64,000 bases of DNA from Owenia fusiformis (taxonomy: Eukaryota; Annelida; Polychaeta; Sabellida; Oweniidae), in NCBI GenBank assembly GCA_903813345.2, contig CAIIXF020000012.1, forward strand, positions 17,741,520 to 17,805,519, written 5' to 3'. Each line of letters opens with the position of its first letter. Positions within the stretch are counted from its first letter, which is position 1. Positions 93-30,310 of the stretch are shown here, one piece after another. Below the pieces are notes generated by a model, which was given only the letters and a program-made list of their open reading frames with translations, was not told the DNA's origin and did no database searches. The translations under genes and the position numbers were made by a program.

Positions 93-3000
93 TCTGCTTG
101 TGAAACGTTTTGTGTGGGCGATGGCGTCAATATTTCTGCCGTTACCGGTGCTTTGGCGGATAATGATACATCCTGGAAAGCAGGAAAATACAGACTCACT
201 CCAACAGCAACAGACAAGACATTGTCTCTTCATAAAGGTTGCACCTCGATCATTGATTATTGTTGTTTTAGATTCATGTATTCCAATTTACTTGACTAAA
301 AATATAATTGTTTTCTGAATGCTGTTTTTACCGGTATTCAGTTTATATTCAGATTACAACTGGCAATATTTTGGGAAATTATGTTATGTATAGTTTTCTT
401 TCAAATGTTTAGGTTTATCACAGCTCCATAAGAAAAGTGTATTTCCATGTAAATTGGTATCTTGTGAAAATCTTCAATCGAAGGACTCGGGCCGACGCAC
501 GTTATTGGTCAAGATGAATACGCAAGTTGCAGGATCTGACGAATTATGTTATCAACCAGGAGATCACGTGGGGATATTTGCAGCCAATAGGGACGATTAC
601 GTAAATTTTATCATAACGAGGCTACAAAATGCGCCAACTCCTGACGAATTGATACAAATAGAAATTCGCAAGAGCAACGGTAATTTTACATTCTTTTATG
701 TATGATAAATGTCCATAATACTATTAAAGACAGTTGGCATACATGTATTTCAACAATGATAGGAGATTTACGTTCATCATTATAACAACACTTTTAGCTA
801 ATTCAAATAACTGGGCAGCAGTCGACCGTTTTCCTCCAATGACACTACGCATCGCGTTGAAGAACTACTTAGATATAACAACGCCACCTACACCTGCAAT
901 GCTTCAGCATTTGGCTACCCAGACAAGTGATGCCAAAGACAAACTTGCCCTTGAAAAACTAGCTACGGTCAGTACGGCAACCCCAATTACATTAAATGAC
1001 TGTTAAGTTCTTAACTGAATCAAATTTTTGACATCCTGTTTTGTTTGATTTTAATCTTCGTGCATAACGGATTTATGTTTGTTTTGCTATTATCATTCCA
1101 TCTCTGTATTCAAGGACTCAGCATCGTATGAAAACTGGAAATCCTGGAATCTTCCGAATTTGGTTGAAGTTCTGAAGGAATTTCCCTCGGTTAAAGTCAA
1201 CCCCACTCTACTCCTTGCCCAGCTTCCGCTCTTGCAACAACGCTTCTATAGTATAAGCTCCTCTACTCTAGCACATCCTGACGAGGTCCACATAACAGTT
1301 ATAGTTGTAGAGTATCGCGCACAAGGTGGCAAGGGACCCATTCACAAAGGGGTGTGCTCTGCCTGGTTCGAAAATCTAAAGGAGGGGGATATCATACCAT
1401 GCTTTGTTAGAGCGTGCGTATTCAGATTTAAACTAGATTTCATACTGTAGAATTCTATTATGTTTGCACAACGAACATTTCCTGATTTTTCAATAGTCGG
1501 TTTACTTTGAATTCATCAGTGCAGTGCACTGATGCAAAGGGGAATGGAATTCCGAATTTATTTTTTTTCATTTCTATTTTCAGAGCTCCAAACTTCCATC
1601 TTCCAGAAAACACCAGTTTACCTATAGTTATGGTCGGCCCGGGAACTGGTATCGCGCCTTTTAGAAGTTTTTGGCAACAGCGTAAAGTAGAAGTAGAAAT
1701 GGGACATTTGAATAAACGTAGGTCCTAACAAAATGGAGAGGTTAAGCTAACGATGTTTTTCACAACGTAACCGTGAACGCAAAGTACAAAAATTAACAAA
1801 GGAATGTATCGAGCGCTCATAGTTTTATGCGCGCTTAGTCTACTTCAGATACTCTTTCAGCTTCAGAGTTTCGGGTTTAGAACGGGAGATTTGAATATTT
1901 GACGTTGGGTCAACGGGAACCATTTTACTCGTGTCTATTGAACACTATGCTGTCAATTTTGATTTCGATGCACAGTTGAATTCTTGCTGAACACGGTGAT
2001 GTATGTCATGCATGATTTAGCGCCAAAAATCTTACGAAACGAGCTCGTTTAAAATATGTATTAGAAAACCAGCTATAAAACCGCATCAATGACATACTAT
2101 AGAATCATTACACGCTATGGTGTAGTCTAAACAAACACTGGATTTGAACGGCTATTTATATGAGAAGGCTACATGAATTTGTATATGGTCGAGTGATACG
2201 TACAGGTTCAGTTTCGATTATATATGCAAAGCTTAACCTCTCCAATATCACTTTATAACGTGAAGTAACTTTAAATGTCAAAAGTGCTTTGTAAGCCAAA
2301 GTGTGCCAACAGGAAGGTAGTACAGTTAATTACAAAACAACTGTTCAGTTGTGTCCAAATATTTTGAGCCAATTGGTTGAGCTCATCACGTTTCTCATTC
2401 CAGAAGGGACATTTGGATTCGGAGAGATAGATTTGTACTTTGGATGTCGCAATTCAAAGATGGACGATATATACCGTCATGAAACGATGCCCCTTCTAGA
2501 TGACGGATTTCTTTCCCACGTCTACACGGCACTCTCGAGAGAACCTGGCCAGTCGAAGGTAATAATTAGGTTATATCAATATTCAATGCGATTTAAAACC
2601 CAGTAATTCACGACGCCAAACATGCATAATAACTTATTTCCCAAATTCCGAGTCGCGCATAATAACTTATTTCGCAAATTCCGAGTCGCATCAATAACAG
2701 TTCATTGATTATTTATTTATTTGCAAGCTGGTATTGTGCTTGATTGATTCTATAGTTCATCAAAGACATAAACGTAGCCTACACAAACGGTCTTGGAACC
2801 CAACACCTTTAAAGGTCCCGGATGCACTCGTGATCTCTGATTTTAATTTCAGGAATATGTTCAGACAATTTTGTCGAAAAACTCGAAGGACGTATACCGG
2901 CAAATAGTCGTGGAACGTGGACATTTTTACGTATGTGGTGACGTTACAATGGCGTCAGAGGTCTCTAATGCTTTGAGGCACATAATTAAGACTGAGGGGA

Positions 3001-3382
3001 AGATGACCTCTGATGAAGCACAGCAGTTCATACTTACAATGAGGGTATGAACGTTGTATATTGGATAGCTCTAAGGCAACATAAACATAGATTATTTGGT
3101 GATATGTTTTTGATAAAATAAAAAACAAGGCCTTAGGAATTCTGAAGAAAAACACCCATGCAACAATAAACAATTTGGTCTTAATTAAAAAAAACGGTTG
3201 AGCCCACACGCGAGCAAATTACAAACGAATAGTCAGCGAGGCAATCAGTGTCTAACTTCATATTTATCTTCTTGTAGGAAAACAACAGATTTCACGAGGA
3301 CATATTCGGAGCATCGTTCAAAGTACAGTCAGATCGTAAACTTCAACTCCAAGAATCATTTGAATCCTCTGCGAACTCCTAG
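93..3382 (+). CDS. NOS: Nitric oxide synthase copy A, C-terminal reductase part (5' end outside window)
   Basis: Eight exons are visible: 93-237, 413-679, 798-967, 1115-1413, 1584-1717, 2404-2558, 2853-3044 and 3278-3382 (stop TAG). Spliced, they give 488 residues plus stop with all phases consistent. The protein is the FAD/NADPH reductase half of NOS: a CVGDGVN hinge, the FAD motif QRFYSISSS, the NADPH-site motif [26 protein letters not shown] and the C-terminal FHEDIFG. It would pass electrons from NADPH through FAD to FMN and the haem. The first seven exons have exactly the lengths of the matching exons of copy B near 53-59 kb, and most differences between them are single bases. Oddities are CVGDG where copy B has the usual CVGDD, and a weaker first donor (GTTGCA). 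The frame is open, so the gene is probably functional. The oxygenase, calmodulin and FMN exons must lie upstream of the window. Confidence 0.93.
1735..2243. mobile_element. Short inverted-repeat element with AAT target duplication, in NOS-A intron
   Basis: A 509-bp element in the intron 1718-2403. It begins GGAGAGGTTAAGCT and ends with the reverse complement. The trinucleotide AAT stands directly on both sides (1732-1734, 2244-2246). The same ends and the same AAT flanks are seen at 35243-37743. No coding capacity is visible. The 3-bp target duplication would suit a PIF/Harbinger-type mover, although that group normally prefers TWA. Confidence 0.7.
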
Positions 3383-3467
3383 ATGGACAATGATACTTTT
3401 ACGGTGAAATATAACGGTTCAATATTCCAATAGCTCAAGAGACTGCATGACTTGTACAATATAGTTC

Positions 3468-3473
3468 AATAAA
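3468..3473 (+). promoter_or_regulatory. Candidate polyadenylation signal AATAAA of NOS copy A
   Basis: AATAAA lies 86 bases after the stop codon. The matching place behind NOS copy B has lost this hexamer. Confidence 0.55.
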
Positions 3474-3802
3474 ATTTTAAATCATCAGAGGATTACTGAT
3501 TTAAACTACGCATCAATTAGACTACATGTACGTCATTCAACATTACTGTCCCTAGAGACAATAATAATTTATATGTGGTGTCTGTAAAATTGCTGTTGAG
3601 TGTTTTCAGTCAAGCTTTTACAATTATCATCAGCATCAACGTCATCTATTGTACATTTCAAAAGTTAGAAAATATGTTTTTATCATTTATTATTTTAGTG
3701 AGGATGGTATCAAAAAATACTTTTGACCTCTAAAATTTAGTTTGAAATAGATTCAAGTGTTATTGAACTTCATAAAATCTCTTTTTGAAATCACATATCA
3801 TA

Positions 3803-4733
3803 CAGGGTGGTCAAAAAACGGCAACCCTAGTTTTTCCTAATATTTTTTTTCATTCTAAGAAACAACTCACTGATATTTTACATATTTGTACATCATTCAA
3901 TTTCATTTCATTTTAAGCAACATGCCCCAGATGGCCACTTTTGGGCTGTCTGAGCTGGTCTGTTATTCAAATGAACTCCATTTCCAACTTGTTGCACTGG
4001 TAAACTCTAACACTTATGTATTCTTGGGGAGCCAAGCACTTGATGAAGTAGTGGAGAGGCACCTTCACACAGACAGATGCACAGTTTAGTGTGTTCTCAG
4101 AATATAGGGTGCTTTACCTTTGATGATACCAACGGTTATGCAATAACTGTCAACATCAAACTCTATTTTGTGATTCCCATGGAATTCTTGGGAACTTTAG
4201 GTGAACCCAGGGGAGTATATAGGCAGCAACAGTGGTTCCAACAAGACATAACCATACCCCATACACTCAATAGATACACAATAATTGCTTTGGGACCACT
4301 TCAATGACCACATTATAAGCAGTACAACAGACAATGAATGGGCACCCCGGCCCATAGCCCAGGTATGGCCCCGTTTAATCTTTACCAGTGGGGATACCCC
4401 AAAGATAGAGTGTAGGGTAATAACACCAGAAAGATATCTCACCTCAAAATAAAGATCACATGTGTCGTTCAGGCCATAATTACTGAGGAATGCAGTTATG
4501 CCATTGACAGATTTGGAAAATGTGTGCAGGTTTGCCTACATAACGATAATGGAAAACTGGGGCACCTTGTTTAAAGTGCTGTAACATTGTGAGTATCAGT
4601 CCAGCGTTCATAAAATAATACAGTCTAGTATGACATTCAATGATGTACATGTGTGTCAAATATCAGGGCAAAAATTCTAAAAATGACAAAGATATGAGGA
4701 AAAATTAGGGTTGCCGTTTTTTTGACCACCCTG
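3803..4733. mobile_element. TA-flanked Tc1/mariner-type element
   Basis: A 931-bp element with terminal inverted repeats starting CAGGGTGGTCAAAAAA and running for about 35 bp. TA dinucleotides sit on both sides (3801-3802, 4734-4735). The homologous sequence behind NOS copy B (about 60330-60380) lacks the insert, which gives a paralogous empty site. It contains a decayed transposase. Confidence 0.85.
3946..4415 (+). pseudogene. Decayed IS630/Tc1/mariner-type transposase, C-terminal half
   Basis: Two frames joined by a frameshift near 4080 read like the catalytic part of a mariner-class transposase. The first has SNELHF, matching the S-D/N-E-A-H-F block. The second has WFQQD followed by PHT, the usual block with the second catalytic Asp. 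Further on is HSPGMAPFNLYQWGYPKDRV, matching the SPDL-P-D-FFLWGY block but with Asn where the acidic residue is expected. Stop codons interrupt at about 4305 and 4338. It is dead and lies inside the element 3803-4733. Confidence 0.7.
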
Positions 4734-5050
4734 TATTTTGATAAGATTTAGTAAGTTATGTCAAGTTGGTTTAAACTTCTAAAGGAGGCTAATAGTTTTT
4801 TTTAAATTAATTTTCTCCATTGTCAGTCTATATCGGTTGACTTCATTCATTAATTAGTAATTTCAATGTCTTTGAATTTTGAAATCATCTGTTTTAACTT
4901 TTTATGTTATTTTCTTATTGTCAATTTTGTATATTTCTAAAAACACTATTAACCTCATTAATTATCATTAATCATCGATTTATGTGCATTTGTATGCCAT
5001 AATGATGTATATTTACATTGTTCAAGGTATATGTACGTGCTTTGTGGGTA

Positions 5051-5527
5051 TAGAGAGATTTCGCAACTCACAATAGGATGCATATCATTCCCGTATAACG
5101 AATAACTTATGAAGCATTTGATAACGTGCTCATTTATTGCGTAGCTCTATACATCCATAAGTGTGATATTTTTATAAATTGTCGTTTATACATAAGAATA
5201 TCACACTTATCAGGCCCGTAGCCAGGATTTGCCAAGGGGGGGTCAGTTTTCAAACATTTCCAGGGGGGTTCACTTTTGACAATTTTGGCCCAAATATGGC
5301 TAAAATCACTTGAGAAGTGCTCAAAATGGTGAAAACTGCATGATTTTGAAAGAATTTTTGGCCAGGGGGGGGGTTCGCCCGAACCCTGCAAACCCCCCCC
5401 CCCTGGCTACGGGCCTGCTTATTGACGTATAGAGCGCAATAAATGATGGCGTTATCAAATGCTTCATAAGCAATACGTTATACGGGAATAATTAACATAT
5501 ATATAAGTGAGTTACAAAATCTCTCTA
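5051..5527. mobile_element. Palindromic MITE, interrupted by a second MITE
   Basis: The ends read TAGAGAGATTT...GCAACTCAC and its inverse. Further matching arms are CCCGTATAACG at about 5090 and 5477, and AAGCATTTGATAACG near 5110. It inserted at the very end of the region shared with the NOS-B flank. No coding sequence. It is flanked by TA on both sides if the TA is counted as the target. Confidence 0.7.
5211..5417. mobile_element. 207-bp MITE with 5-bp target duplication CTTAT
   Basis: Perfect 16-bp terminal inverted repeats (CAGGCCCGTAGCCAGG) and CTTAT on both sides (5206-5210, 5418-5422). The inside holds G-runs and C-runs. It sits within the loop of the MITE 5051-5527, so it is the younger of the two. 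Confidence 0.85.
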
Positions 5528-6067
5528 TTGTCTATTTTACTTGTTCCTATGCTATTGCTGTATTCATCGTACGTGCACCAACAATAAAATTTAATTAAAC
5601 AAACCAACAAGTTCAATTGCCATTTCATACATTACATCGTAAAAAAAACTGATGCCATTTGACACTATGCTAAATATGCGATCAATGAATTCAATATGTA
5701 ATTAAAGTATAACCGAATACCAAATACAAAATGACACTTAAAAATAATTATTAACAATATTAAACCTGGGATTGTAACCAACGCCAACGCCAACAAATAT
5801 ACTTTATTTGTACTTTTAGAAAATATATGGCTTATATTGTATAATTTGGTTTCTTAAAATTTATCGAATAGGCCCAATATAATTCCAACCAAATCTACAA
5901 TTGGCATTTGAACAAATGAACATGGCTAACACTGGGGGTAAATGGAACATACGAACAGGACGAAGTTATATTTTTTCGATCAAGCCGCTATTGTATTTAT
6001 ATAAACATTAAAGTCTTACCCCATTTACGCATAATGTTATACATGAGTTCGTTCTACTGTTCATGGT
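5528..6067. other. 3' flank of the amine oxidase gene
   Basis: AT-rich sequence with no gene seen. On the minus strand AATAAA occurs at 5808-5803, about 260 bases after the amine oxidase stop codon, and is the best candidate polyadenylation signal. Confidence 0.4.
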
Positions 6068-9000
6068 TTATAACTCGACATTTACTCTCGCAGGTTTTGT
6101 ATCGTCCTGACAGGGCTCAAAATCTGGTGGATTTTCATTCAGACCTGATATAGAAGATTTAAGATATTTTGGGACATCCATCACAGCTAGGTTGTCGAAA
6201 TAATTATGCGGTTTTAACCAGAATCCCGTAGATACACTTGCCGTCATTGGAATATCTTCAGATGTTGGTAAATGGTTTAAACTTGGGGTTATCCATGTGA
6301 CAATATCTTGATTCGTGATTGGTTCATTGTCTAGATAGTTGTCGAGGGAGCCAACTGGTTCTGCAAGTTGATTAACATCATAGGGATTACTAAGATATCT
6401 CTCAGTATCTCGCTGTCTTGTGACGGCACAATGGTATTTGGTGAACGCCAGAGCCTTGTTAGCGATGTGGTCCGAAGGTAGTATATTTGCTCCTGTCGCC
6501 ATCATCTGGATTCTGTAACCTCTTGGTACGCCCCATTTGTTTTTCTTTGCATCGTTTACCACAACCCAAAAGTGAGGGTTGTCTAAGTTCTTTCTCAAAC
6601 CAATCTCATTTTTCAGAGTCACATATTTGAGGAAGCGTGTGTGTTCATTCTCGAAATACGGTGGATTTGTATTTCGTCTTCCTTGTGATCTAAATGCCTT
6701 GCCCACCGTGTCCGCCTTCCATGCAATTTTCTGAAATGAATTTTTAGTACCACCTATATCCATATCGACTTTGAAACCAAACGCATGATCATGTATCGCG
6801 CCTTGTGTAAAATCCTTCACCTTGTACCCAAAACCATCAAATCCGTCATTATTTTTTCTTCGATTTGGATTATCATCATCCCAAAATGCAGCTTGAAGAT
6901 AACCTGATGCTTCAGCAATCGTTTGCATTTTACCATCCATGTAGAATCTAAAGTCAATCGTATAATCGTAATTACCTGCGGTAAGCGGTATGCGAACTAC
7001 CAGGACATGATTTCTGAGTCCTGCAGAATAGGAATCACCTCGTCGCCATAAAGGGCCTTGCATATCTGCCTCAAAAACACAACCGGCTCCAACTGTTGAT
7101 GCAAAATTCACACTTTTAATCCAGCGATATAAGTTGATTGTGTGAGCGTATTCCGGGCAATCAACTCCAGGTACAAATGGCTTGATTTGGTCTCCCAATC
7201 CGAAAAGAGAATCCATAAGAATATTGTTGGCGTCACCTGATGCGTCCGAGGAATACACCAGGGAGACTTCATTGAGTGAGTTCTCCCAGAGGATTCGCTC
7301 TCCCTTGAATCGAACATCGTGGACACTAGGTCCACGAACTTGTGAGAATCCAACAGAAAACTCCCAGCCCATCCATGTTATTCGATTTCCTACACAGTTA
7401 ATACGGGAGCCAGATGGCTGGTATGTCCGGGGTGGAGCGATGTTTGCACCTTTGCGTGCCCACCCTGTCCCATCCCGCTGAGGAAACGTTGCATTCCAAG
7501 CTGTTGATTTGTAGTTTCTCGGAAGACTGAATTTTCGCAGTTCCCCTTTTGTATACGCCTCGAGCAAATCTTCGGCCGTATCAAAAGGTCCTTGGTTTAG
7601 GTAGAAAATTCTGTGAATCTTCCATATTGAAACATCTGTGCCAGGTGAATATATCGTAAAGGATAGGGGCATGTGATTGATATCATACCCAGATGACGTA
7701 GCTTGTATTCGCAAAACTAATACATAACGCGTGTTTCGCTCAGAAGCAGTAAAACCTTGTGGCGATAATGTTCGAAATCTGAATTCATGGTTCCCGAAAC
7801 TCTCTTGAATTATTAGATCAATAGTATCTGTGAAGGAACGCATCATGCCCAAATGTGTGAAGTATTCGGAACTTGATAGCACTTGGGAATTAAAAGACAA
7901 CTCCCCGTCCTTATACAGTTGAGTTACGTTCATGGAATCGCCACACACTGGACCGACTTTGTATTCCATCAGATCAGGATTTACGGAGTTTCCTCTGATC
8001 ACGTGAACCTCTGCAAAGCGTCCTGGGTGTGAACCACCATTGTCAAGATAATCTAACGCTTTTGCTTTTTCTGGAGGTAGTAACGCCATCCTATGTATAT
8101 ATGTATTCTTAAAACTTGTTCCCCATGGATCGACAATTCCTTTAGATACTAAGGCAGAGTAAACAGTGCGCATTTCGTCTGGGTCCAACATATCGAAAAT
8201 CCCCTTTTCACCACAACTTGGCGATGGTGAACATTGTTTTTCTGATTGTGGACATTTGGTGCAGGTGGAGTCGTCTAAAAGCAAAATGAATTATATGTAA
8301 AATTGAGCGACAAATTCGAGCCTAAGAAAAAGAATATAGCTCCGTCTTCTGGAGTTAATATGCCAGTGAAAATATTATAGTCTAAGGATTTCGGTCTAAA
8401 TTTTGCAATAACCTGTTAGTTTGTACAATTTCTCAATCAACAAAACAAGTTCATTCAAAGTGGGATCAACGGATAAACTAAAATGGCTATTTGCTTCAAG
8501 TTTTTTTATCTCTGTAACACGACAATTGTGTTTAACCAAACCCGATTGGAAGTGAAATAGTCTTCAAGATATCACAGTCTTCTAATTTTTTGAATGTCTC
8601 GGTGTTTACATCGAGACACGGCGCGACAAGTCATGGATGTTTGGAATCCCATATCCTGTAAGGGGGGGGGTGTAGCAATAACCAATTTTATAACCTAGCC
8701 TCATTTGCCATTGGAATTCAGCTCACAATGTTCGCTTTAGTTTAGTTATGATAAGTCTAATGAAAGCTTGGATGGCATTATATTACTATTACCGTAGTTT
8801 AGAAATAATGATGTTGAACTGATATAAACGCCATTTCGACGATTTCAAGTTTTACTTTGCGCATGCGCGGCTCTGAGAAAACAATTGGTCATGATTGTCC
8901 ACTTGATCATATTCTACAATTTGATTGGACATGCTATACTGATGGGCGTGATTTCAATAAATTATGTTCATGAATACCAAGGTATACCTAAGAAGTATGG

Positions 9001-9278
9001 GAGCTACTCACTTCTTCTGTCCTGTAATAATCTGACGTCACTCATGTGACACTAAACGAAGTTCTAGAATGGTGATAATTAATGTTATATTTGTTTAATT
9101 AAAATATCGTAACCATAGTACTACCTTTTATCTCACGTTTTAAACGGCTTGCTGGATTAAACGGATTATTTAAACTCTCTTTTTGCGTCATTGTATCATC
9201 ATGAACGGGATCCCCGTCAACAACCAAATAGAGGAGCGCTGTGAAGTACAAATAAATTAAACTACATCTAATCCTCAT
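6068..9278 (-). CDS. AOC: Secreted copper amine oxidase (TPQ-containing), two coding exons
   Basis: Exon 1 (9278-9125) starts with ATG and a hydrophobic leader of about 20 residues, a signal peptide or anchor. Exon 2 (8274-6068) joins after an 850-bp intron that holds nothing recognised. Codon phase fits (G|AC), giving 786 residues, close to animal AOC proteins of about 750-765. The enzyme oxidises primary amines to aldehydes with release of ammonia and hydrogen peroxide. All key residues are visible: the topaquinone precursor Tyr487 in NYDY, copper ligands His546 and His548 (IHDHAFGF) and His719 (NHLPTSEDIP), the catalytic base Asp406 (MDSLFGLG), and the Cys423/Cys450 disulphide pair. The stretch between Tyr487 and His546 is about 10 residues longer than in vertebrate AOC3, with an Asp/Asn/Arg-rich insert. 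It runs opposite to the two NOS genes. Confidence 0.93.
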
Positions 9279-9953
9279 ATCTTAAACTGAGATGAGAGGA
9301 TATTTACTACAGTTAATCATCGATGTTTATAATAGGATTGTTTATAACGGTATCCTAGTACAATATTGTTTACATACTAGGATTAATAAATTAATAAAAA
9401 ACGATTTTATATTTGCATTAAAAATATTTAAGGTTACAGTCTAATTCATTATGCAAGACTGATCACTGCAAAAAGTATATAACACGACTCTCTAAAAATA
9501 GTCCTGGAAGGGGGGGGGGGGGGTTCGCATTGTCAGTCTGATCGGGAAAAGTGATTTCTTGAACAACAGCATTTCAGCAACATCTACATAATTCATTGAG
9601 ATTTTCTTATAAACGCAAGTATTCTTGAAACTTTCTTGGATTGCTTTATTTAAGTATATTTGAGAACAGTCATTTTAACGTGCTTTTATACAAATTGTTT
9701 TATTTTTAATTGTTGAGAAAGTGTACTGACGTTTGTGAAGCCTCCGTTATCCCAAGCCCTAAAGAAACAATGATTTTAATAATAATATATACGAATGAAA
9801 TAAACCCTCGTACATCGATCAAACGTCACAAAACTCATTTCGATCATTATGGCTATACTACAAGAACATTTTTAACAAATAATTATTTCTAAAGTCCTAA
9901 TACCGCATCCAGTTAAAATAAAATGTGAAAATAGGTAATTGAAAGATACTTAC
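9279..9953. other. Upstream region of the amine oxidase gene
   Basis: AT-rich, with a poly-G run near 9510. No promoter motif could be fixed. A possible short acceptor-plus-ORF on the minus strand (9725-9675) could continue the exon candidate at 9954-10245. Confidence 0.3.
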
Positions 9954-12038: not shown

Positions 12039-13867
12039 TAGAACCAAAAGCATATTCTTCTTATTTACTCACTGAAACATGGCAAAGAGCGTTACATAAG
12101 TAAATATCTCTGTTTTAAATGAGTATGTTTTAAATAATTTTGTAAACGTTGTTATCTATAAGTGCCATTTTTTATAATTTAGCAACAAAATTGAACATTT
12201 TGCATTTCTAAATTGATAAATGTCTTGGAATACAGCATATAACTGTTTACGATTTAAGTCGTTCTCCTTAGTGATTCCATGATAAATGACAGTAACTGGG
12301 TCAATGTATTATGTTCAACCTTGTTTTCATGACTTTTATTTTTTAGCTTTTAATCATGATGGATCGCCAAAAACTGCATGTACCTTTAAATGAGATGATA
12401 TGTTTTTAAATTTAGAGATGTAAGCTATAAACTCAAACAAAAAATCAAACTAACCGCTATTATTTTGATTGCACAAGACGAAATTTCCATTCCCGGGGAG
12501 CACTTAGGTAACTCTTTAAGAAGGAGAATTCTTGGAAAATCGTTCGAATTTTCACAAGAAGTTTCATGCATTTTCACCATACTCAAATCCGATACCATAA
12601 TTATAAATTGAAATGAAACATTAGACTCACTAGGTTAGATGATAAAGCGTTTTGAGCATTAATGATTTGAGTTAAACTGTGGATATTTATATAAATGTAA
12701 GTCGGCATGCGTTCACCAGTTTATGTACACATATGATGTATGCATCGCCGTGTGACCTAAATATCAATTTGTGACCATAATATTTGACTTTCGAAAATTA
12801 AGTTGGAAGGTACAATGGTTGGAGATTGCCGAGAACGTCAATCACATTCAAATATCCGAACGACGTCAAGTATTAACAATACACTTTGTGCATCTCGAAC
12901 AAGGCAATGTTCTGTGATCCAGCAATGTGCATTCAGAAAGAAAACTTCACAAATATCAACAATTTCCATTGAGTAGGACATTACATTCGAAATTAGAACT
13001 TTCAAAATATTTGCTTCAACCAAAAATTGCAAGAAATTGAAATATGTTGTTACTTTTTCAAACTATACATATCCTCATTCACGTTCGAAATCTAAGTATG
13101 TATGGTATTACAGTGTCAATTGACACGCCTTTGTTCGCTCATATCATGAAAAATAAATGCAGTACCATCTCTCAATATTCGGAAACAGAAAGTTCATTCT
13201 CTAGGTAAACAAGAAAAAATACATTTATGGTTAGTTCATAATGAAGAATGACTAATAACACACATCTTTTGAAGTAGGGGTATACGGGGACACAGGGGAA
13301 ATTCAGAAATTTAGGCCATATCTTAAAGAATGCTGCACCAATATGTAACAGAACATCAAAATTATCATTTACATGTTTGGTGAAAGGTAAATTGACAATT
13401 TTGGCCACTTTCTAAGTAAATATTGATGTTATTGATATTTGTTATTTCGAGCTCTGTCTTTTATGGGACCAATGGCCCGAGTTTTAAAAGCAATGCCATG
13501 ATGACAACAATGCTTCCATTTTGAAAAATGGTATACCGGGTGTCCAAAAATAATGAGACACTTTTTGACAAGTTTTTTCTATTAGACGAACAGAATCTTT
13601 TGAAAAATTTTACTAAGTAATTTTAGGGTATCAGCAATAAGTCTGCAAATTATAGAGACGATCAGTCACAAATCATTCCAGAAAAGATTTAAAACAGTGA
13701 AAATATCATAAAAAGTCAACTATTTCAGTCAACATGAAGCCGTTTTTTTCAAACCGAAGTCATGACTTAATTATCCTGTCTTTTATACACGTTCAATGTG
13801 TTGTACTTTTATGTATGAGTATTTTTATTGTTGCAAGACGTCACTCCCTGCCCAAAAATTCCTTTGT
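12039..13867. other. Unassigned AT-rich region
   Basis: No gene is recognised. Near 13546, CCGGGTGTCCAAAAATAATG looks like a lone end of a mariner-type element. Its partner was not found with confidence; a possible weak one is TCACCCTGTA at 15260. Confidence 0.3.
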
Positions 13868-14799
13868 GACTAATATAGTCCCTGATCTGGACCCTCTGAA
13901 AAAAGGTTTTGTTGTCCGGTACTTTCCCACATAAAATGATTGTACCGTTTGAAAGAACAGACTTCCCTCTTAAAGAAAACACCTCTTCTATTGATGTAAA
14001 CAGGGGCAAAAGGCACCAAAACGGGGTTAGACAAGGTGGCATTCTGAAGTCTCACTTTCTTGTCATCATGATTCCAGGTAAACCATCAGACGGATCTACT
14101 TCAAGTTTTCACACATGTTACATGGTAAGAAATTCTAGAACTGATTAACTTTGCAGCGGCCATCTTGCATTCTGGCGGCCATTTTGGAATTTTTTTCAGA
14201 TAAATATTGTCATCGCGATTCCACAAAAAACACATAACAGATGTACTTCAAATGTTCACACATGTTACATGGTAAAAAGTCCTACACCTCATTATTTTTT
14301 CGGTGGCCATCTTGCATTCTGGCAGCCATCTTGGAAGTTTTAAGATAAATCTTGTCATCACGATTTCAGGAAATCCAAACGGATTTACTTCAAATTTCCA
14401 CACATGTTACATGGTAAGAAAATATAGAGGTGAATAACTTTTCGGCAGCCATCTTGCATTCTTGCGGCCATCTTGGAAATTTTGGGATAAATCTTGTCAT
14501 CGTGATTCCAGGAAAACAACCTAACAGATTAACTTCAAATTTTCACACATGTTACATGGTATGAAATTCTAGAGCTGACTAACTTTTCGGTGGCCATGTT
14601 GCATTCCGTCGGCCATCTTGGAAGTTTTTAGATAAATCTTGTCATCACGATTCCATGAAAACCACATAACAGTTTTACTTCAAATTTTCACACATGTTAC
14701 ATGGTAAGAAGTTATAGGGCTGATTAACTTTCCGATAGCCATCTTGCATTCTGGCGGCCATCTTGGAAGTTTGTAGATAAATATAAAATACAGTCAAAG

Positions 14800-21115: not shown

Positions 21116-22635
21116 ATTTTTGACCGGAAGTCGGATTGAAATTTGGTTTGCAGATTTGGATTCCTGAGAAAATTCTACCCTTAATTCATAACTCATAAGT
21201 TAAATTATGAGAACTTTTTATTTTGACCTACTTTACGGACACCATATCTCAAAAGTGGGTCAAAATATTTTCTGACGGCAAAAGGCTCTCACTATTAGCA
21301 CACTCTTTGCTACCTGTATACAAAATGTTGAAGCAAATCCTAAAAGTGTAGTGCCAGAATCGCAAAAATAAGGAAAAACTATGAATTTGACCTAGATTTT
21401 GACCTAGGCATTTTGGTGTCCAAATATTGAAACTAGGTAGCATTTGAGGTCCCCTTCTTTTATAGGAATTCATTATCTTAAGCTGTACTCAATCTATATC
21501 TCGTATTTTACACTTCAAAAAAATTTTTTTCCTTGACTTTCTATCAGGATACCATAAGATCAATTTTCCGAAATTTCAAAACGCCATAACTTCCGAATCG
21601 GAAGTCAGATCGAAATTTGATTTAAAGATTCGGATTCCTGACAAAACTCTTCCCCTAATTCATAACTCATACGTTAAATTTGGCGAATTTTTATTTTGAC
21701 CTACTTTTCGGACACGCCATAACTTTTGAACCGGAAGTCGGATCGAAATTTGGTTTGCAGATTCGGATTCCTGAGAAAATTCTACTCTTCATTCATAACT
21801 CATATGTTAAATTTGGAGAATTTTTTATTTTGACCTACTTTTCAGACACCATATCTCAAAAGTGGGTCAAAATACTCTCTGACGGCAAAAGGCTAACACT
21901 ATTAGCACACTCTTTGCTACCTGTATACAAAATTTTGAAGCAAATCCTAAAAGTGTAGTGCCAGAATCGCAAAAATAAGGAAAAACTATGAATTTGACCT
22001 AGATTTTGACCTAGGCATTTTGGTGTCCAAATATTGAAACTAGGTAGCTTTTGAGGTCCCCTTCTTTTATAGGAATTCATTATCTTAAGCTGTACTCAAT
22101 CTATCTCTCGTATTTTACACTTCAAAAAAATCTTTTTTCCTTGACTTTCTATCAGGATAACATCAGATCGATTTTTTTCGAAATTTCAAAACGCCATAAC
22201 TTTCGAACGGGAAGTCGGATCGAAATTTGGTTTGCAGATTCGGATTCCTGAGGAAATTCTACCCTTATTCCATAGCTCATATGTTAAATTTGGAGAACTT
22301 TTTTAGTTTGACCTACTTTCGGGACGCCATATCTCAAAATCGCTAAGAGTAATCAAAAAACGGATGGCACACTCTCGATTTGTTTTTTTCTAAGCTACAT
22401 GATGAAAAAAAAAAAGGAGTAACGACAATAAGCAACGAAGATAATTGACAGAATGTTGATTTTACCTAAATTTGACCTAGTTCTTGACCTTTGACCTAGA
22501 TAAAAATTTGACCTAATTTCCCAGAAACTAGGTTGATGGGCTATGTTAGCCATGTAAGTAGGTTAAAGTAAGTTCTTCTAGTTGCTGAGAAAAAGTGTTC
22601 GGAAAGAAAGAAAGAAAGAAAGAAAGAAAGAATGA

Positions 22636-22746
22636 ATAATAATAAGAAAACTGGCAAAAGCAATAGACTCCAGATTTTCATCTGGAGTCTAATAAGAAGA
22701 AGAAAACTGGCAAAAGCAATAGACTCCAGATTTTCATCTGGAGTCT
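22636..22746. repeat. Two copies of a hairpin-forming repeat
   Basis: A GAAAACTGGCAAAAGCAA stretch, then TAGACTCCAGAT, four bases, ATCTGGAGTCTA: a 12-bp perfect stem, present twice. The same unit recurs at 30080-30305. It shares AGACTCCAGAT with the heads of the long array units. Confidence 0.85.
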
Positions 22747-23460
22747 AATAATAGGATTTGGCCATACGCGTATAGAGGGAAATGGCTCTACGGACGCTCT
22801 GAGGGCCTATAATGGTCGATTAAAGGACGGAGAATCTAGGGAGGTAGTTGGGGAGAATGCCTGGCTCGTGCTTCGCGAATCCGTCGAGGTCAAAAAATAG
22901 TCCTTCAAAAAATAGGCCTTCCAGACGTCTATATAGAGCTTTCGACGTAGATTCGAGCAGCGTACGCGTCGTTCTACATTCCGCAATCGTTAGTTTGACG
23001 AAGGGAATCGTTGTTTTAGAAATGCTCTAGTCATCGTTCGGGCCTATTTTCTTTCAAATGTCTGCTGTTCGCAGAGATACGTATACCAAGTGTATTCGTG
23101 CCGTCTAGATATACGGCAACGGTGGCCCGTACGCGAACTTCAAACGCGTATATCTCGATAACTAATGGTCGGATTTCAATTTGGTTCACTGTTTTTTTAA
23201 TGCTCGGAAAACTGTCTTTCCGACCAGCTAGTTTTCCTCCGATTCTGACTTCTTAAGGAGGCTCGAGAGGCCGAAATAGCGGAAATGCAGATTTCGACCT
23301 AGATTTCGACCTTTGACCCAGATAAGGATTTGACCTAATTTCCGAGCAACTACGCCTAGCCCCCTAACAACGTGTATGAGTAAATTTATCCAAATATCTC
23401 TCGTTGATGAGAACGTGTGGTTAGAAGGATTTTTGCTTTTGCACATACAAAAGCAAAAAT
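22747..23460. repeat. Diverged array unit, less AT-rich
   Basis: Still carries the end block (TTTCGACCTAGATTTCGACC and AACTACGCC in place of AACTAGGT) but is otherwise diverged and has more CG. It ends in a perfect hairpin, GATTTTTGCTTTTG with its inverse, at 23427-23460. Confidence 0.55.
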
Positions 23461-25958
23461 CACTAGATTTGTGAAATTGAACAAGTTCAATTTAAGACTC
23501 CAGATTTATTTTACCTAGATAGATCAGTAAAGAGCTGAGTAAGTAACTGAGTAATTAGCTGAGTAAGTACCTTAGTAGTAGTTGAGTAAGTAGCTGAGTA
23601 AGTAACTGAGTAAAAAGCTGAGTAGGTAGCTGAGTAAGTAGCTGAGTAAGTACCTGAGTTAGTAGCTGAGTAAGTTGCTAAGTAAGTAATAACTAATTAA
23701 GTAATTGAGTAAGTAGTCAAATAAGTAGCTGAGTAGGTAGAGAGGTAAAGTAGGGTATGCAGGAATTTTTGAAAGTATATTTGATCAATCTGCATCGTGA
23801 ATACTGGCAAGTGCGAATTTCAAACTTCAAAATGGCGTAGAATCTAAACCGGGGGTCGGATTGCAATTTTTGCTACAAGTATACAAAATTTCGGAGAATA
23901 TCATTGAAGTGTAGTGTCAGAATCGCAAAATAAGAAAAAACTATGAATTTGACCTAGATTTTTTAAACTAGGTATTTTGGTGTCCAAACTTTGAAGGAAA
24001 GTAGCTTTTGAGGTCCCCTTCTTCTATGGGCTTTCATTATGTTTAGCTGTACTCATTCTATATCTCGTATTTTTACACTTCAAAAAATTATTCGGTCCCA
24101 TTGATTTAACATGGGGCACCAAATTTAGCGATTTTTGAGATCTCAAAACGCCATAACTTCAGAACAAGTAGTCGGATCGAAATTTGGTTTGCAGATCTAG
24201 ATTTCTGAGAAAATTCTACCCTTAATTCATAACTCATACGTTAATTTTGGAAAACTTTTTACTTTGGCCTACTTTTTGGACACCATATCTCAAAAGTGGG
24301 TCAAAATACTTTCTGACGGCAAAACGCTAACACTTTTAGCATACTCTTTGCTACCTGTATACAAAATTTTAAAGCAAATCATTTAAATATAGTGTCAGAA
24401 TCGCAAAAATAAGGGAAAACTATAAATTTGACCTAGATTTTGACCTAGGCATTTTGGTGTCCAAATTTTGGAGCTAAGTAGCCTTAGAGGTCCCCTTCTT
24501 TAATAGGCTTTCATTAAATTAAGCTGTACTCAGTCTATATCTTGTATTTTACACTTCAAAAAAATCTTTTTTCCCATTGCCATAACATAGGCACCAAATT
24601 TAGCGATTTTTGAGCTATCAAAACGACATAAATTCCAAACCAAAAGCCGGATTGAAATTTAGTTTGCAGATTTGGATTCCTGAGAAAATTCTACCCTTAA
24701 TTCATAACTCATACGTTAAATTTGGAGAACTTTTTAGTTTGACCTACTTTTCGGACACCATATCTCAAAAGTGGGTCAAAATACTTCCTGACGGCAAAAG
24801 GCTAACACTATAAGCATACTCTTGGCTACATGTACACAAATTTTCGAAGAATATAATTAATCTGTAGTGTCAGAATCGCAAAAATAAGGAAAAACTTTGA
24901 ATTTGACCTAGATTTTGACCTAGGCATTTTGGTGTCCAAATTTTTATGAAAAGAAGGTCTTGTGGTCCCTTTCTTTTATGGGCTTCCATTATGTTTAGCT
25001 GTGCTTAGTCTATATCTCGTATTTTACACTTCAAAAAAATATTTTTTCCCATTGAATTAACATGGGGCACCAAATTTAGCGATTTTTGAATTTTCAAAAC
25101 GCCATAACTCCTGAACCGGTAGTCAGATCGAAATTTGGTTTTCAAATTCGGAATCCTGAGAAGATTTCCCATAAGACTGATATCCTGGACATTGGATTCG
25201 GTGAAATTTTTTTTGGACCTCGTTTTCGGACACTGATATCTCGAAATCGGTTTGAGATACCAAAAAACTAAATCGACCCTAGGTTTTCTACTTTTTTATG
25301 AGGAACACAATGAAAAAAACCAGGATCAAAAATATTGAAGGACGACCGAGATAATGGGAAAAAGTGACAAAGTACTGGATTTGACCTAGTTCTTGACCTT
25401 TGACCTAGATAAAAATTTGACCTCATTTCCCAGAAAGCCAGATACATTCCCTAGTTAATCATGTAAGCAGCTTAAAGTAAGCTCTTCTAGTTGGTGAGAA
25501 ATCTGGGAAGGAGGAAGAAGAAGAAGAATAACTAGATTTGTGAAATTGAACAAGTTCAATTTAAGACTCCAGATTTATTTTACCTAGATAGATCAGTAAA
25601 GAGCTGAGTAAGTAACTGAGTAATTAGCTGAGTAAGTACCTTAGTAGTAGTTGAGTAAGTAGCTGAGTAAGTAACTGAGTAAATAGCTGAGTAGGTAGCT
25701 GAGTAAGTAGCTTAGTAAGTATCTGAGTTAGTAGCTGAGTAAGTTGCTAAGTAAGTAATAACTAATTAAGTAATTGAGTAAGTAGTCAAATAAGTAGCTG
25801 AGTAGGTAGAGAGGTAAAGTAGGGTATGCAGGAATTTTTGAAAGTATATTTGATCAATCTGCATCGTGAATACTGGCAAGTGCGAATTTCAATCTTCAAA
25901 ATGGCGTAGAATCTAAACCGGGGGTCGGATTGCAATTTTGATTTCAGATCCGGATTCC

Positions 25959-28256
25959 GGGTGTCTACAAAACTAAGACCTAAGACCTACAAAACTAAGA
26001 CCCCCCACGTAATAAAACTAAGACCCTGTTATAAAACTAAGACCCCCCACGTTATAAGACTAAGACCCTGTTATAAAACTAAGACCCCCCATGTAATAAA
26101 ACTAAGACCCTGTTATAAAACTAAGACCCCCACGTTATAAAACTAAGACCCTGTTATAAAACTAAGACCACCCACGTAATAAAACTAAGACCCCCCCACG
26201 TTATAAAACTAAGACCCTGTTATAAAACTAAGACCCCCCACGTTATAAAACTAAGACCCTGTTATAAAACTAAGACCCCCCCACGTTATAAAACTAAGAC
26301 CCTGTTATAAAACTAAGACCCCCACGTAATAAAACTAAGACCCTGTTATAAAACTAAGACCCCCCACGTTATAAAACTAAGACCCTCCACGTAATAAAAC
26401 TAAGACCCTCCACGTAATAAAACTAAGACCCTGTTATAAAACTAAGACCGCCCACGTAATAAAACTAAGACCCCCCCACGTTATAAAACTAAGACCCTGT
26501 TATAAAACTAAGACCCCCCACGTTATAAAACTAAGACCCTGTTACAAAACTAAGACCCCCCACGTTATAAAACTAAGACCCTGTTATAAAACTAAGACCC
26601 CTCACGTTATAAAACTAAGACCCCCCACGTAATAAAACTAAGACCCTGTTATAAAACTAAGACCCCCCACGTTATAAAACTAAGACCCTGTTATAAAACT
26701 AAGACCCCCCCACGTAATAAAACTAAGACCCTGTTATAAAACTAAGACCCCCACGTTATAAAACTTAGACACTGTTACAAAACTAAGACCCCCACGTAAT
26801 AAAACTAAGACCCTGTTATAAAACTAAGACCCCCCCCAGAATATTTTGAATTTTTCAGAAAATGTGTCCAACATATTGCTCTAAATGATAGGAGCTTTGA
26901 AATTTTGATTAAATTTCTAGAAATAGTCTAGAGAAAAAATGAAAAAAAATGAAAAAAAATATTTGAAAAGAGGTCTATTTTCCTTTATCTGACCACAATT
27001 TTTGTTTCAGACAATTTTTCTTATTTTCAAAGCTCCTATCATTTGAAGCAATATATTGGGCACATTTTCTGAAAAAATCAAAATATTATGTTCAGTGACC
27101 TTACCGATACCCTTACTTTTAACTTTTTTTCAGTCACATTTTCAGAGGGCTGAAAAACCATTTCAGCATGGTTAGTGTCATTTTGACATGACCATTGTGA
27201 TCCTGGTCATGTAAATGATAAATGGGAGTAGTAAAAATGACAGAAGATCAAAGCAGAACTCTGCTATCTTAGTTCAAAAAATCTAAAATCACATGGTTTT
27301 TTCATTTCCTGTTTGGTGTAAATTTCGAATAACTTCTCCAAGACCTTAAGCTAATCTTTATATCTATATCTATAAGACTATCTTTTGTAGAATCTGTATG
27401 TTACTGGGGAACACATGTGCCAGAGGCAAGACTACCTCGCGAGCAGAGCAAGGCACGATGATTGATTCTTAGTTTTATAACAGGGTCTTAGTTTTATAAC
27501 AGGGTCTTAGTTTTACAACGTGGGGGGTCTTAGTTTTATAACAGGGTCTTAGTTTTATAACGTGGGGGGGGGTCTTAGTTTTATAACAGGGTCTTAGTTT
27601 TATTACGCGGGGGGTCTTAGTTTTATAACAGGGTCTTAGTTTTATAACGTGGGGGGTCTTAGTTTTATAACAGGGTCTTAGTTTTATTACGTGGAGGGTC
27701 TTAGTTTTATAACAGGGTCTTAGTTTTATTACGTGGGGGGTCTTAGTTTTATAACAGGGTCTTAGTTTTATTACGTGGGGGGTCTTAGTTTTATAACAGG
27801 GTCTTAGTTTTAAAACGTGGGGGGGGGGTCTTAGTTTTATAACAGGGTCTTAGTTTTATTACGTGGGGGGTCTTAGTTTTATAACAGGGTCTTAGTTTTA
27901 TTACGTGGGGGGTCTTAGTTTTATAACAGGGTCTTAGTTTTATAACGTGGGGGGTCTTAGTTTTATTACGTGGGGGGTCTTAGTTTTATAGCGTGAGGGG
28001 TCTTAGTTTTATAACAGGGTCTTAGTTTTATTACGTGGGGGTCTTAGTTTTATAACAGGGTCTTAGTTTTATTACGTGGGGGGTCTTAGTTTTATAACAG
28101 GGTCTTAGTTTTATTACGTGGGGGGTCTTAGTTTTATAACAGGGTCTTAGTTTTATAACGTGGGGGTCTTAGTTTTATAACAGGGTCTTAGTTTTATTAC
28201 GTAGGGGTCTTAGTTTTGTAGGTCTTAGGTCTTAGGTCTTAGTTTTGTAGACACCC
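25959..28256. mobile_element. Foldback transposon with minisatellite arms and 10-bp target duplication
   Basis: A 2298-bp insert inside an array unit. The ends are GGGTGTCTACAAAACTAAGA and its inverse. TCCGGATTCC is repeated exactly on both sides (25949-25958, 28257-28266); removing the insert and one copy restores the normal unit sequence. The left arm (about 25970-26835) alternates two short units, ATAAAACTAAGACCCTGTT and a related one ending in CCCCCCACGTT or CCCCCCACGTA. The right arm (about 27468-28245) is the same array in inverse. The 630-bp centre has its own inverted repeat (TAGGAGCTTTGAAA near 26890 and TTTCAAAGCTCCTA near 27037). No protein is encoded. The 10-bp duplication points to a Mutator-class or similar transposase acting in trans. 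Confidence 0.92.
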
Positions 28257-30079
28257 TCCGGATTCCTGAGGAAATTCTACCCCTAATTCATAACTCATAC
28301 TTTAAAATTGGAGAACTTTTTATTTTGACCTACATTTCGGACACCATATCTCAAAAGTGGGTCAAAAAACTTATTGACGGCAAAACGTTAACATTATTAG
28401 CACACTCTTTGCTACAAGTTTACAAAATTTCGGAGAATATCATTGAAGTGTAGTGTCAGAATCGCAAAATAAAAAAACTATGAATTTGACCTAGATTTTG
28501 AACTAGGTATTTTGGTGTCCAAACTTTGAAGGAAAGTAGCTTTTGAGGTCCCCTTCTTCTATGGGCTTTCATTATGTTTAGCTGTACTCATTCTTTATCT
28601 CGTATTTTTACACTTCAAAAAATTATTCGGTCCCAATGATTTAACATGGAGCACCAAATTTAGCGATTTTTGAGATCTCAAAACGCCATAACTTCAGAAC
28701 AAGTAGTTGGATCGAAATTTGGTTTGCAGATCTAGATTTCTGAGAAAATTCTACCCTTAATTCATAACTCATACGTTAATTTTGGAAAACTTTTTACTTT
28801 GGCCTACTTTTTGGACACCATGTCTCAAAAGTGGGTCAAAATACTTTCTGACGGCAAAACGCTAACACTATTAGCATACTCTTTGCTACCTGTATACAAA
28901 ATTTTAAAGCAAATCATTTAAATATAGTGTCAGAATCGCAAAAATAAGGGAAAACTATAAATTTGACCTAGATTTTGACCTAGGCATTTTGGTGTCCAAA
29001 TTTTGGAGCTAAGTAGCCTTCGAGGTCCCCTTCTTTAATAGGCTTTCATTAAATTAAGCTGTACTCAGTCTATATCTTGTATTTTACACTTCAAAAAAAT
29101 CTTTTTTCCCATTGCCATAACATGGGGCACCAAATTTAGCGATTTTTGAGCTATCAAAACGACATAAATTCCAAACCAAAAGCCGGATTGAAATTTGGTT
29201 TGCAGATTTGGATTCCTGAGAAAATTCTACCCTTAATTCATAACTCATACGTTAAATTTGGAGAACTTTTTAGTTTGACCTACTTTTCGGACACCATATC
29301 TCAAAAGTGGGTCAAAATACTTCCTGACGGCAAAAGGCTAACACTATTAGCACACTCTTGGCTACATGTACACAAATTTTCGAAGAATATAATTAATCTG
29401 TAGTGTCAGAATCGCAAAAATAAGGAAAAACTTTGAATTTGACCTAGATTTTGACCTAGGCATTTTGGTGTCCAAATTTTTATGAAAAGAAGGTCTTGTG
29501 GTCCCTTTCTTTTATGGGCTTCCATTATGTTTAGCTGTGCTTAGTCTATATCTCGTATTTTTCACTTCAAAAAAATATTTTTTCCCATTGAATTAACATG
29601 GGGCACCAAATTTAGCGATTTTTGAATTTTCAAAACGCCATAACTTCTAAACCGGAAGTCAGATCGAAATTTGGTTTTCAGATTCGGAATCCTGAGAAAA
29701 TTTCCCATAAGACCAATATCCTGGACATTGGATTCGGTGAAATTTTTTTTGGACCTCGTTTTCGGACACTGATATCTCGAAATCGGTTTGAGATACCAAA
29801 AAACTAAATCGACCCTAGGTTTTCTACTTTTTTATGAGGAACACAATGAAAAAAACCAGGATCAAAAATATTGGAGGACGACCGAGATAATGGGAAAAAG
29901 TGACAAAGTACTGGATTTGACCTAGTTCTTGACCTTTGACCTAGATAAAAATTTGACCTAATTTCCCAGAAAGCCAGATACATTCCCTAGTTAATCATGT
30001 AAGCAGCTTAAAGTAAGCTCTTCTAGTTGGTGAGAAATCTGGGAAGGAGGAAGAAGAAGAAGAATAATAATAATAATAA

Positions 30080-30305
30080 TAAAGAAAACTGGCAAAAGCA
30101 ATAGACTCCAGATTTTCATCTGGAGTCTAATAATAATAATAAAGAAAACTGGCAAAAGCAATAGACTCCAGATTTTCATCTGGAGTCTAATAATAAAGAA
30201 GAATACTGACGAAAACAATAGACTCCAGATTTACATCTGGAGTCTAATAAGAATAAGAATACAGGCAAAAGCAATAGACTCCAGATTTTCAATCTGGAGT
30301 CTAAT
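30080..30305. repeat. Four copies of the hairpin repeat with AAT spacers
   Basis: Four units of about 60 bp, each with TAGACTCCAGAT and its inverse separated by a short loop and joined by (AAT)n or (AAG)n spacers. Same unit as at 22636-22746. Confidence 0.85.
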
Positions 30306-30310
30306 AAAAT

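Follow-up and report, generated by a model that had tools for sequence, protein, structure and literature searches.

A young, non-autonomous foldback transposon family with minisatellite arms in Owenia fusiformis, likely moved by a MULE-type transposase

Introduction

The foldback elements FB of Drosophila and Galileo carry long, internally repetitive inverted arms of variable length and have been linked with inversions. FB leaves target-site duplications of 9 bp and Galileo of 7 bp.

Other foldbacks with tandemly repeated arms have been placed with Mutator elements. According to the available part of its description, Tm1 of root-knot nematodes, a Mutator/Foldback element, makes 9-bp duplications and has ends built from one to nine units of mostly 14 bp, with a transposase-encoding copy known (PMC3169594). 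Tetris of Drosophila virilis was assigned to the Mutator superfamily on the basis of 8–10-bp duplications and by analogy, as stated in the accessible text of PMC4079207. For MULEs in general, the corresponding part of PMC6446971 gives duplications of 8–11 bp, and the same source lists Rehavkus, which is characterized by a PHD finger and a minisatellite, from arthropods and annelids.

Here we analyse a stretch of 64,000 nucleotides from the annelid Owenia fusiformis, referred to as the window throughout, in which an insert had been predicted to be a foldback transposon, together with the genome-wide family to which this insert belongs. Elements of this kind are known, and the family is a further foldback; in the open-licence literature we recognised no report of it and found no match to its end sequence.

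Results

Structure of the insert

The insert comprises 2298 bp (window 25959–28256) and is flanked on both sides by TCCGGATTCC (Table 1). It starts with GGGTGTCTACAAAAC at 25959 and is closed by the inverse of this sequence at 28256. The original prediction had described defined inverted ends, an exact 10-bp duplication, arms of alternating 19- and roughly 23-bp units inverted relative to each other, and a core of about 630 bp with an inverted repeat of its own, and all of these features were found. The arms are 42-bp arrays in which spacings of 19 and 23 mostly alternate, and they contain inverted stretches of 195–197 nt with 95–96% complementarity, while the core harbours a palindrome at its positions 5–258 (window 26837–27090). 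The clean empty site that had also been claimed is seen in both of the two loci fetched, where a single uninterrupted TCCGGATTCC lies between flanks that are 96–97% identical.

Most of the core is a section of a separate dispersed palindromic repeat, here termed P, with the palindrome forming the centre of this section. When complete, P is about 770 bp long, with arms that are 88% alike, and is about 80% like the section in the window. Dispersed examples are present at loci L077, L078 and L079. Adjacent in the core lies a stretch that overlaps the P section with its first 100 bases and closely resembles part of the 14.9-kb copy c2; its counterpart in c2 adjoins the broken gene described below. 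Elsewhere in the window, a 740-aa open frame (6071–8290, minus strand) looks by eye like a copper amine oxidase; an exon at 1055–1447 (plus strand) resembles the reductase part of a nitric oxide synthase, likewise by eye.

Table 1. Features of the insert and its surroundings in window coordinates.
Feature	Position	Strand	Remark
Host repeat, 475-bp tandem unit, left of insert	23872..25166	.	
Left target-site duplication TCCGGATTCC	25949..25958	.	read from sequence, flank comparison
Left terminal sequence GGGTGTCTACAAAACTAAGACCTAAGACCTACAAAACTAAGACC	25959..26002	+	first 29 bases vary little across the family
Left arm, 42-bp (19+23) minisatellite	25991..26835	+	TRF rows 25991-26707 and 26070-26835
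Section of separate dispersed palindromic repeat P, making up most of the core	26837..27354	.	
c2-like stretch	27255..27465	.	97% identity to 14.9-kb copy c2 (core 423-633)
Remnant of inner-arm 75-bp repeat	27374..27471	-	common to other copies
Right arm, 42-bp minisatellite	27483..28217	-	inverted relative to left arm
Right terminal sequence	28207..28256	-	
Right target-site duplication TCCGGATTCC	28257..28266	.	read from sequence, flank comparison
Host repeat, 476-bp tandem unit, right of insert	28260..29702	.	

Genome-wide copies and target-site duplications

The genome searched has 525 contigs and a total of 498 Mb; among the contigs seen, 12 are 32–62 Mb long. Exact copies of the 15-bp end occur 68 times in forward and 69 times in reverse orientation, while the reversed end pattern, used as a control, gave no match genome-wide. 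Allowing up to three mismatches over the first 29 bases yields 69 and 74 ends. Two end types are represented almost equally among 86 ends, with CAAAACAAAG at 44 and CAAAACTAAG at 42. For flank comparison we selected copies with two exact ends. Together with the window copy, 42 pairs drawn from 100 of the 137 exact-end places listed make up a first set of 43, and nine more pairs from a T-type list of 84 places bring the total to 52. These copies account for 104 of the 137 exact ends; the remaining 33 comprise 24 T-type ends and nine others.

The original prediction had proposed such an end search with flank comparison and had named copies without duplications or with different ends as evidence against it. 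Across the genome, this comparison supports both the foldback reading and the 10-bp duplication: dispersed copies carry a flanking duplication in 50 of 52 cases (44 exact 10-bp, five 10-bp with one mismatch, one exact 9-bp), although L022 and L045 have none and C10:24621860 has the 9-bp version (TTGATTTTT, read by eye from the flanks). Within the first 43 copies, 40 have exact 10-bp duplications and L048 has one mismatch. The nine further pairs add exact 10-bp duplications in L050, C9, C13 and C14:181 and one-mismatch duplications in L051, C11:12.675, C14:120 and C116. A second reverse end at C3:20294578 lies near L022 and may be its real partner. The left and right flanks of the same copy are identical at all ten positions in 40 of 43 copies, compared with 34 of 1806 mismatched flank pairs, a number given by count (4 + 30) by copies that share one target site.

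Median pairwise divergence of the main interior is 1.05%, measured over those copies in which 600 bp or more of spacer could be aligned (23 of 43). This low divergence, together with the small number of ends gained at three mismatches, points to a recent burst. With its long inverted arms containing internal tandem repeats, the family is a real, young, non-autonomous foldback.

Variation of arms and interiors

In 43 copies the arm motif AACTAAGAC recurs at spacings of 19 (1780 times) and 23 (1732 times), which mostly alternate. Arm length varies both between and within copies, from 0 to 2324 bp with a median of 978 bp, and left and right arm lengths are not significantly correlated (rho 0.26, p 0.10; both for 43 copies). 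One arm of L051 reaches 3.8 kb, with up to 175 motif copies, and one arm of the 5.7-kb copy at C11:10358479 measures 3.8 kb. Duplications are present despite a single array in L020 and C10 and despite a nearly absent core in L017 and L027 (15 and 23 bp). Both long arms therefore seem not to be needed, and the ends seem to be enough for insertion.

The commonest interior measures about 1.3 kb (1.2–1.4 kb in 18 of 43 copies) and looks non-coding; its longest open frames cross an inner 75-bp tandem repeat, the unit of which is a multiple of three. The window-type core differs from this interior and is mostly part of repeat P. In C147 (7.9 kb), which has a long interior, the longest among the ORFs listed encodes 80 aa. 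Inspection by eye of the one side fetched of a one-ended relative at C4:26.49 Mb (C4:26499233) revealed no transposase-like ORF.

A shared target site in a tandem host repeat

The insert site falls within a tandem repeat with units of about 475 bp, a setting that the original prediction had not mentioned, and the two flanks resemble each other across the insert (24200–25246 and 28261–29306, 84%). Among the matches listed, this host repeat has 40 other long matches (>1.3 kb) at 95–99% identity; scoring covered 40 of the 2830 first-look candidates, some of which gave several rows. The host repeat is young and very abundant, and it resembles satellite-bearing Helentron-type elements, for which the available part of PMC7492417 provides a lead. 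It is also found at window 30068–30307 and 22635–22751, and contains a 12-bp minisatellite and units with the hairpin AGACTCCAGATTTTCATCTGGAGTC.

Sixteen of the 52 copies occupy one shared target site, TCCGGATTCC: the window copy, L019, L024, L033, L034, L039, L041, L042, L048, L050, L051, C11:12.675, C13:600, C14:120, C14:181 and C116. On the right, both L041 and L024 match the host repeat of the window at 94–95% over about 1.45 kb; on the left, L024 matches at 93% over 1.34 kb and L041 in one piece of 305 bp at 96%. All 16 contain the window-type core, either complete or partial. Genome-wide this core occurs in 22 places (18 full, 4 partial), 16 of which were checked for target site. Outside the shared site, where interiors were read in the 34 other copies of the first set and in C10, it was found in part in c2 (right part) and in L043, which has a different target site and holds two fragments of it as shorter fragments of repeat P; C10 is without core. 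Three of the 16 copies (L019, C13:600 and C14:120) carry the core inverted with respect to the flank, as recombination between the inverted arms would produce.

Candidate sources of the transposase

Two copies are 14–15 kb long, c2 (C2:10955186–10970049, 14.9 kb) and c7 (14.2 kb). Beside the right inner arm, c2 contains broken pieces of a gene (12480–13963) with PYGNQSESINNK and a SWIM-type finger, CxCx8CxH, identified by eye. We compared PYGNQSESINNK by eye with the stretch around the catalytic E of MULEs, RTNNDTEGWH in L061. The pieces gave no Pfam match and have only distant relatives elsewhere in the genome. An ORF on C32 scores 102 against the c2 gene (shuffled mean 29.9; reached in none of 1000 shuffles); in the genome search it came up only at E 0.17, and tblastn at E 0.01 did not recover it. 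Likeness to a MULE-like gene on C12, whose own MULE match lies under the Pfam cut-off, is weak, with 23 of 1000 shuffles reaching the score of the finger and 15 of 1000 that of the cysteine-rich part behind it, and with E 0.31 for a profile of the c2/C32 pair. The gene pieces could be captured sequence, since repeat P overlaps the stretch that separates them from the inner arm.

A second SWIM-finger ORF in c2 (8527–9174) was rejected as the family transposase because it belongs to a different, nested MULE-like element (3618–9338), the inverted ends of which measure about 200 bp and the site of which shows a 9-bp overlap. This site is uninterrupted in c7, and the nested element has a relative at C12:10.35 Mb with matching pieces that are about 90–99% identical. 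The length of c7 (L003/L004, C7:33443495–33457878) is due to nested retroelements, in which two reverse-transcriptase-like ORFs (609 and 925 aa) were recognised by eye; no transposase was seen in it, also by eye.

MULE-domain matches occur in 17 places of the genome, and five loci were fetched (L059–L063). Open MULE ORFs with FLYWCH are present in L060 (2310–4106, 599 aa) and L061 (2120–3970, 617 aa), the latter with a PHD match under the cut-off. Both have arrays of a 16-bp unit as inverted ends, as does L059 on the one side seen. L060 and L061 are thus protein-coding MULE foldbacks, and tandem-repeat MULE ends occur in this genome. L062 contains a MULE-like gene with a run of N, either a gap or a withheld stretch, within its 331-aa frame (2756–3748). 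The duplication of L060 is the 8-bp GTTTGAAA by script (alternatively 10 bp with one mismatch and ends shifted by one base); that of L061, 8-bp GTACATAG, was read by eye, as the ten script rows listed are matches inside the array.

Their arrays are short, and their ends start with GGT, in contrast to GGGTGTC in the foldback family. Neither GGGTGTC ends nor the arm motif AACTAAGAC were found in L059–L063, where L063 has one GACACCC. An AACTnnGACC likeness between the arm motifs was discarded as evidence of kinship, because 387 of 2000 shuffles reach it. The open MULEs thus differ from the foldback family in their ends and probably in duplication length, and the differences in ends and arm unit from L060 and L061 do not place the family among the PHD/FLYWCH (Rehavkus-like) MULEs.

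Discussion

Taken together, the data favour, with a probability of roughly 0.7, a non-autonomous foldback DNA transposon family served in trans by a MULE transposase, the window copy having multiplied with its host repeat. A MULE-type transposase supplied in trans would recognise the ends of about 30 bp, and perhaps the repeated arm motif as well, cut the element out and insert it with a 10-bp stagger. The arms would lengthen and shorten as tandem arrays, and recombination between the two inverted arms could flip the core. The window copy would descend from one insertion into the tandem host repeat, which later multiplied together with its passenger. A MULE-type mover is likely: we infer it from the 10-bp duplication, which falls inside the 8–11-bp range stated in the available text of PMC6446971, and from the MULE-like pieces in c2.

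It is unlikely, though the most serious of the alternatives, that the family is moved by another superfamily, for example a P/Galileo-like or an undescribed one, and that c2 picked up its MULE-like pieces as cargo. No transposase, and hence no MULE, was found with GGGTGTCTACAAAAC-type ends. The c2 gene, which gave no Pfam match, lies beside a fragment of P and may have arrived with other sequence, and both c2 and c7 contain much nested sequence. Against this stand the exact 10-bp duplications in 44 of the 52 copies, which lie within the MULE range and depart from the 7 bp of Galileo. Somewhat more speculative still is a foldback lineage with a transposase type of its own, a strict 10-bp duplication and a very recent sweep, the transposase source being gone or never in the assembly; the single host-repeat insertion would then be a second, independent multiplication with repeated flipping. 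That the structure is not a transposon at all, but a tandem-array palindrome or an assembly inversion artefact, is extremely improbable: long inverted arrays are generally hard to assemble, but duplications are found at numerous unrelated sites, sites without the insert exist, and copies with arms of unequal length lie on many contigs.

The presence of 16 of 52 copies at one site in a young, abundant tandem repeat makes it probable that a single insertion was copied along with its host, and the window copy probably represents no independent jump of its own, having spread as a passenger of the host repeat. Sixteen independent insertions in both orientations at a preferred site of this repeat would agree with the three cores opposite to the flank and with the abundance of the host, but they are improbable given that all 16 have the window-type core, at least in part, and that no other copy among the first 43 (34 copies) has it whole. 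Target-site preference is moreover slight, at most 0.21 bit per position across 34 aligned sites (the shared site counted once; L022, L045 and C10 excluded).

With more than 50 checkable copies, this clean, young foldback family is good material for asking what repeat arms are for, and in the 16 copies resembling one insertion, changes in arm length and inversions of the core are naturally recorded.

By description, the family resembles FB and Galileo in the build of its arms, their variable length and the link with inversions, and differs in its duplication of 10 bp compared with 9 bp in FB and 7 bp in Galileo.

The PHD/FLYWCH MULEs of L059–L061 resemble Rehavkus as given in the accessible part of PMC6446971. 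Tm1, as far as the available text of PMC3169594 describes it, shares with the family composite inverted ends with variable tandem short motifs, motif numbers that differ between the two ends of one element, several non-coding classes and short conserved outermost motifs. In contrast to Tm1, the Owenia family has 10-bp duplications, a 19/23-bp dimer, up to 175 motif copies per arm and no coding copy found. Tetris likewise has tandem-repeat arms and no autonomous copy found, but in the part of PMC4079207 available its unit is 220 bp with three complete copies, compared with a 42-bp unit and 52 two-ended copies checked here. Among the foldbacks compared, and as portrayed in these portions of the sources, Tm1 and Tetris are the closest described relatives in kind.
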